64,000 nt of DNA from Aurantibacillus circumpalustris (lineage in GTDB: Bacteria > Bacteroidota > Bacteroidia > B-17B0 > Aurantibacillaceae): contig NZ_CP121197.1 in NCBI RefSeq assembly GCF_029625215.1, forward strand, positions 2,604,001 to 2,668,000, given 5' to 3'. Below, piece by piece: positions 34,042 to 50,311 of the stretch. Made by a program: the position numbers and the translations under genes. The notes under the pieces are model-generated. The model saw nothing but the letters and a program-made list of their open reading frames with translations, did no database searches and was not told where the DNA came from. Position 1 is the first letter of the stretch; each line of letters begins with the position of its first letter.

Positions 34042-34371
34042 TTAAACTTTTGGTGGTGGGGTATCCTTTTGTTCTAAAAGATATTTATAGAAGGAATCTG
34101 TAGAAGTGTAAAAGGGTTTTGTAAGTGTTTGAAAGGATCCAAAATTCTCGTAGAAATAATAATTGTAATCTTCCTGAGAGTCATCATCATTATCCATGTC
34201 ATCTCCAGTGCAATCTGAGTCACCGCCTTCTAAATCATTCTGTTTCGCTTTTTTTGTCAACTCAACTCTATGTCCTGGTGTTTCTTCTTCCAAAATTGGC
34301 ACGTACTGAAATACAGTAAATAGCATTCCTGAAAGGAAAATAAAAATGAATATAAAACGAAGCCTTTTCAA
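34042..34371 (-). CDS. small exported acidic protein, type 1 of the CO2 locus
   Basis: 109 aa, initiating at TTG: an in-frame TAG lies 18 bp upstream and the next ATG would cut into the signal sequence. Signal/anchor about 5-25 (FIFIFIFLSGMLFTVF), then an acidic segment (GDDMDNDDDSQEDYNYY) and a short C-terminus. No known family. It is one of three such genes, each immediately upstream of a transport unit. A perfect -7 box TAGATTTG lies 10 bp before the TTG. Confidence 0.65.
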   Translation of the reverse strand: MKRLRFIFIFIFLSGMLFTVFQYVPILEEETPGHRVELTKKAKQNDLEGGDSDCTGDDMDNDDDSQEDYNYYFYENFGSFQTLTKPFYTSTDSFYKYLLEQKDTPPPKV

Positions 34372-34755: not shown

Positions 34756-36171
34756 TTAAAAATAAATTTGATACTGTAAAGTAATACTGCTCTTGCGAGA
34801 ACCAGCAACCACATCTTTATTTATATCGTTATAAAAAGTGGGACGGTTTTGATAATCCAATGAGATTTTTGAATTGTGACCTTTAATAAACCAATTTAAA
34901 CCTGCATTGTAAATAATCATTCCTTTGTTTTGTAAAGCCGCATAGTCAGCATATTGTCCACTTATGTAAGGCATTAACCGACCTTTGGTTTCACCTAAAA
35001 TGTTTTTAGGAAGCATAAACCCAAGTTGGGCATAAACAATTTGGCCTGTACCAAACATGGGTACAGCATTTCCATAAGCGCTGCCTTGGATAAGATTTGT
35101 TGCAGTTGAGCCAGTTCCAGGGTTCATTAAACCATTGTAACGTAAATAATTGTGTCCGTAGTTCATGTTGTAGTAGCCTGCAAATGCACTTATCATTGTT
35201 CCTTTTTCTTTATTCAAGGGCATATCTAAAAACGTTTCAACACACAGATGTAACATGTTGTTATATGAGGTATCAATAAGAGCTCCAACATCATTTGCTT
35301 TTAAATTCCAGGTTGCCGCTTTTTGATAAACGCCACCTACAGCAATGTTCCACACTTTTTTTGAACCTAAATATGTGCCTGTCATGTAAGGCGTTGTGTG
35401 TCCCTCATTTTCAAAAAAATTGTAAGCAAAATAGCCGCCAAGTTGATTGTGAATTCCAGGGCCGTTACCTTGCTTAAATGTAGCTGGGTTTACGAAATTA
35501 GCGTTGGTACTTAACGCGGGTGCCCCGTTTCCGTTAGAATTAATTGGAAATGGATTGGATAAATAAACTCTGTAATCTAATTTTCCGACTTGACCGCGCG
35601 CATACACTGCAAGCCTTCTGTCAAATTGATCAATCTGATCAACTGAGTATTGCAGAAAGACCGGAACATCCATTGTCATAATCGTTCCCACAGATGGTTG
35701 TGAAAATCGTGAAAGACCATTCAGTACTGTTAAACCACCACCGATTTTTAATTGATTTTTTTTGGTAATTCTGTATTCACATAAAGCATCATGAAAAAAC
35801 GCAGCTATCTTGCGGTTTCCAGAACTGCTGTAAGCTGCAGTATTATTGAAATTATTTTGTCCAAACTGAAAATAAACAAAAGTTCTGTCAGTTATTTGAC
35901 CAAACAATTGAATGCGAGTTCTTCTTAAACCAATGTCAAAAATATCAGGGGAGTTTTTTTGAAAAAGCGTGGTGCCATCATTACTTTGGGTATATCTTAG
36001 CCATGTTTGATTCATAAAAGTTGCTTGAAAATAATGTGACCCGTCTTCATTTAAATTAAATTTTAAGGCGGTTTTATCCGTTGTTTTCTTTGGTATACTA
36101 TCGGCTTGCTGTGCCAATAAAGTCGAAAATGAAATGCTGGATAATAAGACAATTAAAATGGATGTTTTCAT
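34756..36171 (-). CDS. outer-membrane porin-like beta-barrel protein
   Basis: 471 aa from ATG 36171 (MKTSILIVLLSSISFSTLLAQ signal peptide); a longer frame reaches upstream into the hairpin region and is rejected. The mature protein has alternating beta-strand patterns throughout (for example FQATFMNQTWLRYTQ, RRTRIQLFGQITDRTFVYFQFG) and ends in LQYQIYF with terminal Phe, as expected of barrel proteins. Resembles phosphate-selective/anion porins. Between two SulP genes, so it may admit anions such as bicarbonate to the periplasm; that is inference. Confidence 0.75.
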   Translation of the reverse strand: MKTSILIVLLSSISFSTLLAQQADSIPKKTTDKTALKFNLNEDGSHYFQATFMNQTWLRYTQSNDGTTLFQKNSPDIFDIGLRRTRIQLFGQITDRTFVYFQFGQNNFNNTAAYSSSGNRKIAAFFHDALCEYRITKKNQLKIGGGLTVLNGLSRFSQPSVGTIMTMDVPVFLQYSVDQIDQFDRRLAVYARGQVGKLDYRVYLSNPFPINSNGNGAPALSTNANFVNPATFKQGNGPGIHNQLGGYFAYNFFENEGHTTPYMTGTYLGSKKVWNIAVGGVYQKAATWNLKANDVGALIDTSYNNMLHLCVETFLDMPLNKEKGTMISAFAGYYNMNYGHNYLRYNGLMNPGTGSTATNLIQGSAYGNAVPMFGTGQIVYAQLGFMLPKNILGETKGRLMPYISGQYADYAALQNKGMIIYNAGLNWFIKGHNSKISLDYQNRPTFYNDINKDVVAGSRKSSITLQYQIYF

Positions 36172-36204
36172 TTTGTTTCTTTTTAGAATGAGTGTTTTAA
36201 TAAT

Positions 36205-36386
36205 CTTGCCAGCTCCGACTGAAAGATGTAATAGAAAACTATGAAATAAACTATTACTCAATCAGCCGGTTGGCAAGTTCTTTGCCTCAAAAATAGAAGC
36301 AAAATTTTAATTTGTCTTGCCGGCTCTGTTAAACAATCTAAACAAACTCTATGAAGAACTATGTTTTTTTACAGATTACCGGCAAG
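36205..36386 (-). ncRNA. tandem pair of hairpin elements in the porin leader
   Basis: Two structured elements read on the minus strand. Element 1 is 36386-36316 (71 nt) with outer stem CTTGCCGG/CCGGCAAG, then CTGT/ACAG, then AAACA/TGTTT. Element 2 is 36277-36205 (73 nt) with CTTGCC/GGCAAG, CCGGCTGA/TCAGTCGG (one mismatch) and GTAATAG/CTATTAC. Both carry TTCATAG in the apical loop. They are separated by 38 nt; element 2 ends 33 nt before the porin ATG and element 1 begins 12 nt after the SulP stop. No U-tract follows, so they are not ordinary terminators. Candidate cis-regulatory RNA. Confidence 0.5.
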
Positions 36387-36398
36387 TTTCTTATGAGT

Positions 36399-38012
36399 CT
36401 AGCTCAGTTTTAAAATACGTGTTGACGTTGGATCCTTAGATAATTGACGATGATTTTCAAAACCAAGAACCAATACTTTTCCACCTCCGTCTTTATATTC
36501 CTCTACTAAGCCGTTCATGGTTACAATAGAAGAGTGATCTACAATATTAGCTTCCGAAACGTTTATCGTAATGTATTTTCCTTGCGGTATCGCTTGGAAT
36601 TTCTTTTTGAAGCCCAATAAATTAGAGAATACTAAATCGTCTTTAACATTCAGGGTGTAATTTTCTCCTTCTTCAACCAAAGTAATATTTGTTTTAAAAG
36701 TATTCTTTAAGGAAGCACCGTTAACAAGATTGATAATTAACTCTAATAAAATTCCAGATCCAACGCCCATTAGAAGATCAGTAGAAATAGTGATAAGAAT
36801 AGTCACCAGAAATACGATTAATTGTTCTCTTCCAATATATAATGTGTGTAAAATTTGTTTTGGATGTGCTAATCTGAAACCTACAAAAATAAGCATGGCT
36901 GCAAGTGCCACGTTAGGAATCATTTCAATAAATTGAACACCAACAAGAACCGCGATTAACAGAAACAAACCGTGAAAAAAATTAGCCCAGCGCGTTCTTG
37001 CGCCATAACCAATGTTAGCAGAACTCCGCGCAACTTCACTAATCATAGGAAGTCCACCTAGAATTCCACAAATAGTATTTCCAATACCCACACCAATTAA
37101 ATCTTTATCGTAATCGGTTTTACGTTTAAAAGGATCCATGCCGTCAACGGCTTTGGCAGTGAGCAGTGATTCTAAACTTCCAATTAGTGAATATAGAATA
37201 ACGTATTGAATAAATATTCCAGTGTGCGTTGTTATTCCTGAAAAATCAACGTTTATCAAACCATTTTTAAAAGCTTCGGAGATACTTCCTATTTTTACCA
37301 AAGCGAAACCAGCAATTTCTCCATCGGTTTTAATATGCAAAGCAAATCCTAAAGGAATAGCAACAGCTAATACAATAAGCGGTGCGGGTATTTTTTTTAT
37401 TTTTTCATGTTTAACAAAACTCATTAAAATCATAATGAGCAAACAGGCTAGACCAATCTCTGCCAGATGCGCATTTTCATGCATGATACTGGAAGGAAGC
37501 ATGCCAAGCAATTCAAGCGGTTCTTTACCTTTTAGTTCTGAAGGATTGATGCCCAGTACAAGGTGCAATTGTTTTGTCATAATTATAATACCAATAGCGG
37601 CGAGCATTCCATGTATAGCTGCGCTTGGAAAAAAATCGGCAAGTTTACCAAGTTTAAACACACCAAAAAGAATTTGCAAAAGGGAGGCAACCACCACCAC
37701 ACCTAGTGCCAGGTGCCATCCAATTTCACCATCTCCCATTGCTATTACTGAACCGCTTGCAATTACAATTAATCCAGCAGCCGGCCCTTTGATAGATAAA
37801 CGAGATCCCATAATAAAACTTACAACAACGCCACCAACGATGGCTGTTACAAGTCCAAATATCATTGGGAAGCCTGAGGCTTTTGCAATACCTAAACTCA
37901 AAGGCATTGCTAGTAAAAATACTAGAAAGCCGGATAAAGCATCTTTTGTAAAGTTTTGTTTTAATCCTGCTAATCCGTCTGCAGGTATAAATCTTTTTTG
38001 TTTGGTTGACAT
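36399..38012 (-). CDS. SulP family anion transporter with STAS domain
   Basis: 537 aa. Multi-pass SulP domain about 20-430 (KGPAAGLIVIASGSVI signature) and a fuller C-terminal STAS domain about 440-535 (KYITINVSEANIVDHSSIVTMNGLVEEY). Diverged from the other SulP gene in the window, so the two are not a recent duplication. Located between small exported gene 2 (upstream) and the porin (downstream). Bicarbonate is the likeliest substrate by context; sulfate cannot be excluded. Confidence 0.9.
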   Translation of the reverse strand: MSTKQKRFIPADGLAGLKQNFTKDALSGFLVFLLAMPLSLGIAKASGFPMIFGLVTAIVGGVVVSFIMGSRLSIKGPAAGLIVIASGSVIAMGDGEIGWHLALGVVVVASLLQILFGVFKLGKLADFFPSAAIHGMLAAIGIIIMTKQLHLVLGINPSELKGKEPLELLGMLPSSIMHENAHLAEIGLACLLIMILMSFVKHEKIKKIPAPLIVLAVAIPLGFALHIKTDGEIAGFALVKIGSISEAFKNGLINVDFSGITTHTGIFIQYVILYSLIGSLESLLTAKAVDGMDPFKRKTDYDKDLIGVGIGNTICGILGGLPMISEVARSSANIGYGARTRWANFFHGLFLLIAVLVGVQFIEMIPNVALAAMLIFVGFRLAHPKQILHTLYIGREQLIVFLVTILITISTDLLMGVGSGILLELIINLVNGASLKNTFKTNITLVEEGENYTLNVKDDLVFSNLLGFKKKFQAIPQGKYITINVSEANIVDHSSIVTMNGLVEEYKDGGGKVLVLGFENHRQLSKDPTSTRILKLS

Positions 38013-38075: not shown

Positions 38076-38417
38076 CTACAAACGGAGTGATCTGAAATTT
38101 ATATACAAGCTTTCTTTTTCAATTTTCTTCTCAATTAAAGTATTTGCCCCAGCTACTAGTGTGTTTGGCTCTGAATGAATAAAGGCAAAAAGAAACTGAG
38201 CTAGCGGAATAGCAGTTAAAATATTGTTATTCGTTGATTCATCAATATCTTCGGTTAACAATGCAATAGTTAATCCACTGTTTTGATTACCAGTAGAAAT
38301 TTCAGTAAACTTTTTAATCGAACGCATGCCTCCAAATTCAATACTGGCAGCACCTACAAATGCCAACAATATTGCAATACAAGTGAAGGATTTTAGTGTT
38401 TTTTTTATTTTCTGCAT
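38076..38417 (-). CDS. small exported protein, type 2 of the CO2 locus
   Basis: 113 aa. Basic N-terminus and hydrophobic signal (MQKIKKTLKSFTCIAILLAF), acidic TEDIDES segment, then a hydrophobic patch (AIPLAQFLFAFI) and a basic C-terminus. No known family. It begins 11 bp after the dabB stop and ends 63 bp before SulP, so it lies inside the presumed operon. It shares architecture, not clear sequence identity, with the two other small genes of the locus. Confidence 0.65.
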   Translation of the reverse strand: MQKIKKTLKSFTCIAILLAFVGAASIEFGGMRSIKKFTEISTGNQNSGLTIALLTEDIDESTNNNILTAIPLAQFLFAFIHSEPNTLVAGANTLIEKKIEKESLYINFRSLRL

Positions 38418-42899: not shown

Positions 42900-43259
42900 T
42901 CAAACTCGGAAATTACAAACCGAAAGATAAATCGGATTTGTGTGTGTAACCGCAACAGATTGCGCAGTGATATAATTTGATGTGGATAATTGTAATTGAA
43001 GTTGAGAAATTACGAATGGTAATAGAAGCACTTGCATTTGCATGCTATCTTCATTCTCGTTTTCATTCTCATTTTTTTCTAAAACTACTTGAGAACAACT
43101 TCCTCCATCAGTATCCTGTTTGGCTATGAATTGTTTTTGAATAGAATTAGTGATTTGCGAACTAGGTTTAGACGCAAATACGCTAAATGAACTCACGCAA
43201 AATGAACCTATAAAAAGGAGTAAATTAAATAAACTAAATATTTTACGCGTGGTTTTCAA
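42900..43259 (-). CDS. small exported protein, type 3 of the CO2 locus
   Basis: 119 aa, TTG start (no in-frame ATG nearby upstream). Signal peptide about 1-29 (ending SVFASK), one mature-region Cys near residue 54, acidic repeat-like EKNENENENED, then hydrophobic VLLLPFVISQLQLQL. No known family. First gene of the presumed operon. Its promoter has a perfect TAAATTTG box (43268-43275) almost adjoining the start. Confidence 0.65.
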   Translation of the reverse strand: MKTTRKIFSLFNLLLFIGSFCVSSFSVFASKPSSQITNSIQKQFIAKQDTDGGSCSQVVLEKNENENENEDSMQMQVLLLPFVISQLQLQLSTSNYITAQSVAVTHTNPIYLSVCNFRV

Positions 43260-49539: not shown

Positions 49540-50311
49540 ACTCCGTTAAAACATTATCATAACATAAATAGTACTGACCTTTACCAAGATTATCAATGGT
49601 TAGTTGTTTTCCAAAACCTTTTTTCACAATAACACCATAAGCATCGTAAATTTCAAATGCAGTCTCTTCACTAAAATCAATACTGGAATTATTTCTTGAT
49701 ATCGCGTAAGTAGGCTTGTTAACTGAAGAAGCTACAGTTACGTCTTTAGACATTTTTGTAAGCGCATTTAAGCCTTTTTGCTTAATTCGATATTTGTTTT
49801 CTCCACTATGCATGGCAACTTGAAAAGAATAGTCATGTTGATCGGGTGTACCTAATCCGTCCACAATACCAACCGGAACCCATTTATTCCACTTAAACTG
49901 CTCAATAACGTAAGGCAATGCTCCCATTTCATTTTTACTAGTCCATTTAAGTAAACCACTTGGAGCTATGTTAATTGTTAATACCTCAAAAGTAGGTTTT
50001 GGCTTAAGATCTTCCATGTTTAACACCTTAGGGGTGCAACCTTCATGGTGAGAAATCTCAATAGTTACGTTTTCTCCATATTTTAAATGGAGGGCTTTTA
50101 AATCTATTTCAAAGGCACTTGAATTTATTTCATCTGTAGTGATATTTCCGTTTACCCTGATTTCTTTTGCACAAAAACCAACACCACCTACGCCAAAACC
50201 ATTGTGCACATATACATTTTTGTTCTGATATTTCCCCTCAATAACAAGTGTGGCAGCTCCCGCTAAAAAGCAAGTAGTTAACGCACTCAAAACCAGTAAA
50301 AATCGTTTCAT
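49529..50311 (-). CDS. exported protein with degenerate Por-type C-terminal domain
   Basis: 260 aa from ATG 50311 (MKRFLLVLSALTTCFLAGAA signal). The first half is a beta-rich domain with several Cys residues (FCAKEIR, HHEGC). The C-terminus ([42 protein letters not shown]) has the strand-and-lysine pattern of T9SS sorting domains but lacks a clear PNP box. Function unknown. Confidence 0.7.
   Translation of the reverse strand: MKRFLLVLSALTTCFLAGAATLVIEGKYQNKNVYVHNGFGVGGVGFCAKEIRVNGNITTDEINSSAFEIDLKALHLKYGENVTIEISHHEGCTPKVLNMEDLKPKPTFEVLTINIAPSGLLKWTSKNEMGALPYVIEQFKWNKWVPVGIVDGLGTPDQHDYSFQVAMHSGENKYRIKQKGLNALTKMSKDVTVASSVNKPTYAISRNNSSIDFSEETAFEIYDAYGVIVKKGFGKQLTIDNLGKGQYYLCYDNVLTEFKK

Follow-up and report, generated by a model that had tools for sequence, protein, structure and literature searches.

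Several kinds of structured elements associated with bacterial operons have been described. In E. coli, operons such as malE-malF and similar ones carry protective structures at their gene junctions, as given in the parts of PMC5927463 that deal with them. The pan motif is a stem-like RNA that occurs mostly in tandem in three phyla and has been suggested to bind a dimeric protein (Weinberg 2010, PMC2864571, in its description of the motif). Palindromic candidate RNAs of 80-132 bp have been presented for Bacteroidetes of human microbiomes; those described in the relevant part of PMC8040213 are found near phage, TPR, RuvA and TonB genes, and three of the four named ones are predicted terminators. 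Further structured RNAs of the same phylum are represented by Rfam families, including 6S-flavo, Bacteroidales-1, Flavo-1 and others.

An element that can be compared with each of these, here called element E, is present in two copies in the window, that is, the whole stretch of 64,000 nucleotides of the Aurantibacillus circumpalustris genome that was analysed. As expected of a protective intercistronic mRNA element, E forms a stable hairpin where two genes of an operon meet, and it shares with hairpins of the malE-malF type a position between genes that likely need different expression; unlike them, as they are described in PMC5927463, it has an invariant loop and a second small hairpin. The nearest analogue in idea is the pan motif, which is also stem-like and in tandem. 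In the account of PMC2864571, however, that motif is characterized by conserved bulged A residues, pantothenate genes and a range of three phyla, whereas E has a conserved apical loop, other neighbours (transporter genes) and a range of one family, and no pair of conserved bulged A residues was seen in its alignment. Some loci recall the SecM type, as outlined in PMC7897499, in having a small secreted ORF upstream and a stem-loop before the target gene, but E leaves the start codon uncovered and is, at most loci, separated from the small ORF by SulP. From the candidates of PMC8040213, which are likewise hairpin-like and from the same phylum, E is set apart by description only. The Rfam families named above do not reach gathering score in the window; indeed, an Rfam 15 scan, one of the checks proposed in an earlier note on this DNA, returned 0 families at the gathering threshold, and a permissive scan of 36150-36420 gave 8 matches, all far below threshold, the best being MIR169_2 (19.9 bits vs 50, E-value 0.0076). 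No description of E was found in the literature searched, a statement that applies to that search only.

The minus-strand genes around E are arranged in the order small secreted ORF, DabA, DabB, second small secreted ORF, SulP, copies a and b of E, porin, a further small ORF, second SulP and carbonic anhydrase (Table 1), and would be co-transcribed, judging from this order. From the family matches of DabA, SulP and carbonic anhydrase, together with general knowledge of DabA/DabB, it follows that the operon serves inorganic-carbon uptake. No Pfam match was obtained for the porin.

Table 1. Element E, its accessory hairpins and the neighbouring genes in the window
Feature	Position	Strand	Remarks
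Element E copy a	36316..36386	minus	71 nt; 12 nt past SulP stop; apical loop divergent
Element E copy b	36205..36277	minus	73 nt; end 33 nt upstream of porin ATG; apical loop equal to consensus
Small hairpin P0a (TGAG-CTAGA-CTCA)	36394..36406	minus	encloses SulP stop codon
Small hairpin P0b (TTTTGCTTC...GAGGCAAAG)	36280..36304	minus	precedes copy b
Copy b apical loop TTTATTTCATAGTTTT	36235..36250	minus	exact in 20/31 copies
Copy a divergent loop, TTCATAG core	36349..36355	minus	
SulP-family transporter gene	36399..38012	minus	adjoins E upstream; stop 36399-36401
Porin gene	34759..36171	minus	downstream of E; ATG 36171-36169; similarity to porin ExtI below cutoff
First small secreted ORF	42900..43259	minus	ahead of DabA
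Second small secreted ORF	38076..38417	minus	ahead of SulP
Small secreted ORF with TPPPKV end	34042..34371	minus	directly ahead of second SulP gene

The earlier note had described two hairpins between the SulP stop and the porin ATG, spaced by 38 nt, with a common CTTGCC/GGCAAG outer stem, a common TTCATAG apex and different inner stems. Read on the mRNA (minus) strand, all of this is found in place, and a small hairpin preceding each copy as well as the full 16-nt loop can now be added. The exact hairpin stretches have folding energies of -32.5 and -22.4 kcal/mol. The stretches 36204-36276 and 36315-36386, one base off at the edge, fold with z-scores of -7.06 and -4.95, unequalled by any of 200 shuffles, and their mRNA strand reaches -30.7 and -23.5 kcal/mol vs -22.2 and -19.5 for the opposite strand. 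The 266-nt leader region as a whole (z -5.95) folds in the order small hairpin, E, small hairpin, E. A repeat finder reported no repeat in 36000-36600, which fits two copies with differing stems. On the source genome, covariance model R2 gives E-values of 4.1e-7 for copy a, which is in its training set, and 6.7e-14 for copy b, which is in the training sets of both R1 and R2. A strict arm pattern is matched at 7 places in the same genome; the two that represent the element are the only ones accepted by the model. Among the others, the place at 49890 is a repeat of a different kind, a long imperfect palindrome between two ORFs (L001, about 1490-1590; C1:49880-49980) that has CTTGCC/GGCAAG arms with another loop and sequence, and the remaining 4 were not accepted.

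The two source copies are insufficient alone to demonstrate covariation, which becomes demonstrable with copies from other genomes. E is 69-80 nt long, with a kept outer stem CUUGC/GCAAG and a kept apical loop UUUAUUUCAUAGUUUU, changed in 11 of the 31 copies considered (a set that omits G113, G039, the second G023 copy, the second G016 candidate and the G150 match). The outer stem and the apical region average 92% and 87% identity, the inner helices 45%. In alignment A3, made with MAFFT from 8 of 12 aligned copies (source copy a and three divergent copies excluded), double changes occur in 12 of 22 predicted pairs. Model R1 located further copies, and alignment A5 (24 sequences) shows double compensatory changes in 17 of 22 pairs, compared to 10.0 in shuffles (0/500 as high), and 92.5% of its cells are paired as compared to at most 50% in slid controls, counts that are biased towards the structure since A5 was fitted to model R1 and several copies were first chosen by eye on loop or arms; A3 and the single-sequence folds are independent of the model fit. 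Against 5 A-C mismatches there are 35 G-U pairs (apical mini-helix excluded), and the sense (mRNA) strand is the more stable fold in 30/31 copies, the exception being G112. Both features indicate selection on RNA; a DNA palindrome should show no such preference for one strand. Sequence is also kept around the stem, with an A-rich stretch on its 5' side and, in the 3' flank, A at +1 in 29/31 and AC in 25/31 copies (typically ACCAT). E is a structured RNA family, found in one family of environmental Bacteroidota, with shape and loop held while the letters of the stems change.

The small hairpin, P0, is found ahead of E in 21/31 copies when defined as a stem that has 4 or more pairs, reaches score 9 and ends 4-10 nt before E, as compared to 5.9 expected from mononucleotide shuffling, with control windows further upstream reaching the score in 123/527 cases (23%). 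The count was taken outside the MAFFT alignment, where the 3' arm of P0 is misaligned. The arms vary yet pair (TTGAGC/GCTCAA, TTGGC/GCCAA, CGGC/GCCG, TAGCC/GGCTA, TTTGAGTT/AACTCAAA). In most SulP loci the SulP stop codon lies inside the P0 loop, or in loop and arm; there is no such stem in G008 and G025, which are among the 10/31 copies below threshold. P0 is not due to the coding end alone, since in the second copies (source b, G030b) the stem forms without the stop of any upstream gene.

As to the range of E, the covariance-model search, also proposed earlier, was carried out with R2, for which some of the matched copies had served as building material. Matches were obtained in 27/87 genomes of the order (E-value up to 0.01), of which 26 are judged real, all in two genera of the same family; the G039 match (E-value 0.0086) is regarded as chance. 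A weak match was also seen at the G039 porin leader (L010, 0.0028), a match in G113 has an E-value of 4e-5 (L116), and a third genus holds a copy with a shortened loop (G043, L024, R1 E-value 0.022). Carriers other than the source genome have 1-2 matches each, in a search whose first-look filters score some candidates per genome only, so that weak copies may escape. Class-wide, 5/395 genomes match, and the lone match outside the family (E-value 7.6e-4) is treated as chance. A wide pattern scan of an 84,980-species collection returned 44 stretches, 13 of which match R1 at an E-value of 7.1e-6 or better; all 13 belong to the same family and 6 were in hand beforehand. The other 31 have no E-like fold by eye, the best by model being a Lachnospiraceae contig (0.006). 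Relatives of the porin are present in 35/80 genomes, and among the leaders examined at 30 of the places found, many have CTTGC...GCAAG-ended hairpins with the constant TTTATTTCATAGTTTT apex over unrelated stems, and others do not. When the loop was searched with at most 1 mismatch in 11 genomes, 21 of 33 matches fell outside E; the 6 of these that were inspected, including all 3 in the source genome, have no hairpin.

The genomic contexts of E in the 26 genomes are dominated by the SulP-E-porin arrangement, found in 15, including G003, where SulP is broken. In one genome (G022) a DabA fragment lies upstream and the porin downstream; there, DabA similarity stops at residue 430/830, directly at element and porin (L074, 1-1139), a break representing either a rearrangement or an assembly join. 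Three genomes (G030, G010, G099) have a small ORF followed by E and the porin, SulP not lying between, and three (G108, G103, G032) have a small ORF and E ahead of CusA/CzcA metal-efflux operons, E lying directly before an OEP gene in G108, before an OprB porin in G103 and before a 183-aa protein in G032. In three more (G104, G105, G117) E follows the TolC gene in an RND operon, and in G023 a small ORF is followed by tandem copies at a contig end (L142, G023:C80, 1-412, minus strand), where E-like hairpins form an array of ~175-nt units running from an FKI-ending small ORF to the end of the contig. Tandem copies are also present in the source genome, G030 and G108. Where SulP ends within 20 nt (13 loci), the distance from its stop to the start of E is 11-14 nt in 12 cases and 5 nt in G008; behind the TolC stops it is 23-26 nt. 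Among the metal-efflux and TolC cases, a tblastn search with the DIC-operon proteins of the window found nothing in L045, L059, L077 and L084, and no porin was detected in G103, G104, G105, G108 and G117. When the region from small ORF to E is compared between G108 and G110, the two match at the end of the small ORF and again from the last SulP codons (the part that forms P0) through E, with short chance-level matches only in between, which indicates that the loss of SulP left E in place. E is therefore independent of SulP and of this porin. Conversely, in 4 (G007, G019, G026, G028) of 7 family loci fetched because they have no model match, SulP adjoins the porin, which means that the pair can do without E; the G007 junction has a hairpin with other ends and loop. 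A further copy in G003 (L047/L145, 1101-1177, minus strand), with exact loop and small hairpin, is antisense to an adjacent OmpA-like gene, has no same-strand gene close upstream and is possibly a free-standing RNA.

These contexts bear on what E may do. The part of the earlier interpretation that concerns structural selection and covariation, as opposed to a dispersed REP/MITE repeat, holds: the model finds only two copies in the source genome, adjacent to each other, so E is not a scattered repeat, and covariation is present. A CO2/bicarbonate-related ligand, by contrast, is not supported, since some copies of E belong to metal-efflux operons or follow TolC genes. Nor is translational control by covering of the porin start indicated, as the distance from E to this start varies from 19 to about 160 nt and one TolC locus has no same-strand ORF of at least 80 aa after E on its contig. 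A protein ligand is possible and is the option favoured here. In particular, we give about an even chance to E being an intercistronic element that is read by a protein or an RNase and lets operon segments be expressed separately. This preference is based on the position at gene junctions, mostly ahead of an outer-membrane channel and in three genomes after one, on the lack of a U-tract and of a constant distance to the start, and on a fixed apex and base carried by a free rod, the pattern that a protein-recognised hairpin would show.

According to this boundary reading, E would be a family-specific cis-acting RNA transcribed within transporter operons, the unit being composed of P0, the A-rich linker and a rod of ~73 nt in which the base CUUGC/GCAAG-AC and the loop UUUAUUUCAUAGUUUU are fixed. 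Apex and base would be recognised by an RNA-binding protein or RNase, and the rod would act as a segment boundary, the mRNA on either side being stabilised or translated separately, with the usual outcome of an own expression level for the outer-membrane channel gene. Where P0 encloses the stop codon, a terminating ribosome would be expected to melt it, and recognition could in this way be coupled to how the upstream gene is translated. Against the boundary reading are an invariant 16-nt loop that exceeds the needs of a plain exonuclease block, the location after the channel gene in three TolC loci, the antisense copy of G003, the changed loops, the copies lacking P0 at threshold and the SulP-porin junctions devoid of E. 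The family adds a covariation-supported RNA to a phylum with little-known post-transcriptional control, within one Bacteroidota family it marks the inorganic-carbon operon (DabA/DabB, SulP, carbonic anhydrase) as well as certain metal-efflux operons, and its 16-nt loop on a rod is a concrete bait for the search for a binding protein.

Among other explanations, P0, linker and rod might form a riboswitch pocket that binds a small molecule or a metal ion, with tandem copies sharpening the response. Such a pocket is in line with free stems bearing fixed nucleotides in the loop, the base, the linker and the 3' flank, with the tandem occurrence in four genomes and with the predominance of transport operons, including some for metals, among the loci. 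We regard it as unlikely, as no expression platform was found (neither a terminator nor a fixed distance to the start codon), no ligand common to porins, CusC, OprB and TolC is obvious and no Rfam family reaches threshold. A non-canonical transcription attenuator or 3'-end former acting past stop codons is likewise improbable. The narrow spacing behind SulP and TolC stops agrees with it, and so does the L077 copy, which lies between convergent genes. Yet the stem is mostly followed by AC rather than by an immediate U-tract as in intrinsic terminators, a terminator scan of 36100-36500 gave 0 matches, and in most loci the next gene is a same-strand gene of the operon.

A slim chance can be given to a switch that reads translation: as the P0 loop holds the upstream stop, the full site of P0, linker and rod would be available only without a terminating ribosome, so that the channel would be matched to translation of the upstream inner-membrane transporter. 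The NFRI-ending small secreted ORFs, which look like nascent-chain sensors, may perhaps join in such a switch. That E acts at the DNA level, as a repeat, mobile hairpin or recombination site of the REP/MITE kind, is very unlikely from the copy counts and the strand asymmetry. Its palindromic ends, the exchange of genes around it (loss of SulP, OEP or OprB in place of the porin), the array in G023 and the antisense copy in G003 are all compatible with a mobile DNA; but there are at most two matches per genome, nearly every carrier has one locus, the 3 other loop matches of the source genome have no hairpin, G-U pairs prevail over A-C mismatches, and the same place is occupied in many species. 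It is highly improbable that the loop blocks initiation by pairing with the downstream start region. Its UUUCAU could pair with AUGAAA, and ATGAAA opens many of the porin genes examined; but this is a common start in general, the exact loop is present where the porin begins with ATGAAG (G016) or MMNH (G099), and a same-strand ORF of at least 80 aa is missing downstream of one TolC copy. A U-rich triple helix with the A-rich linker, as known in general for ENE elements, was judged implausible with U-tracts of 3-4 and a rod that is too long.

The small secreted ORFs (the first two in Table 1 and their relatives in L140-L144, L147, L154, L155, L157-L160, L162-L168, L171 and L175) are about 111-147 aa long and stand at the head of these transporter operons or within them, and also ahead of RND efflux operons; in G105 and G117, one ending in FRI is found upstream of the RND operon. 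Their C-terminus (NPIYLSVCNFRI, or other FRI/LRI/LRL ends) is more conserved than the remainder, and in layout they resemble SecM-like nascent-chain leaders. Five of them gave no Pfam or NCBIfam match at cutoff, and a profile built on 16 matched in 3/119 genomes of the class, all of the source genome's own genus. They are also present in operons devoid of E (G007, G026). The ORF ahead of the second SulP gene ends differently, in a polyproline C-terminus that could stall the ribosome, and PPPKI ends resembling its TPPPKV end occur in L146 and L156.
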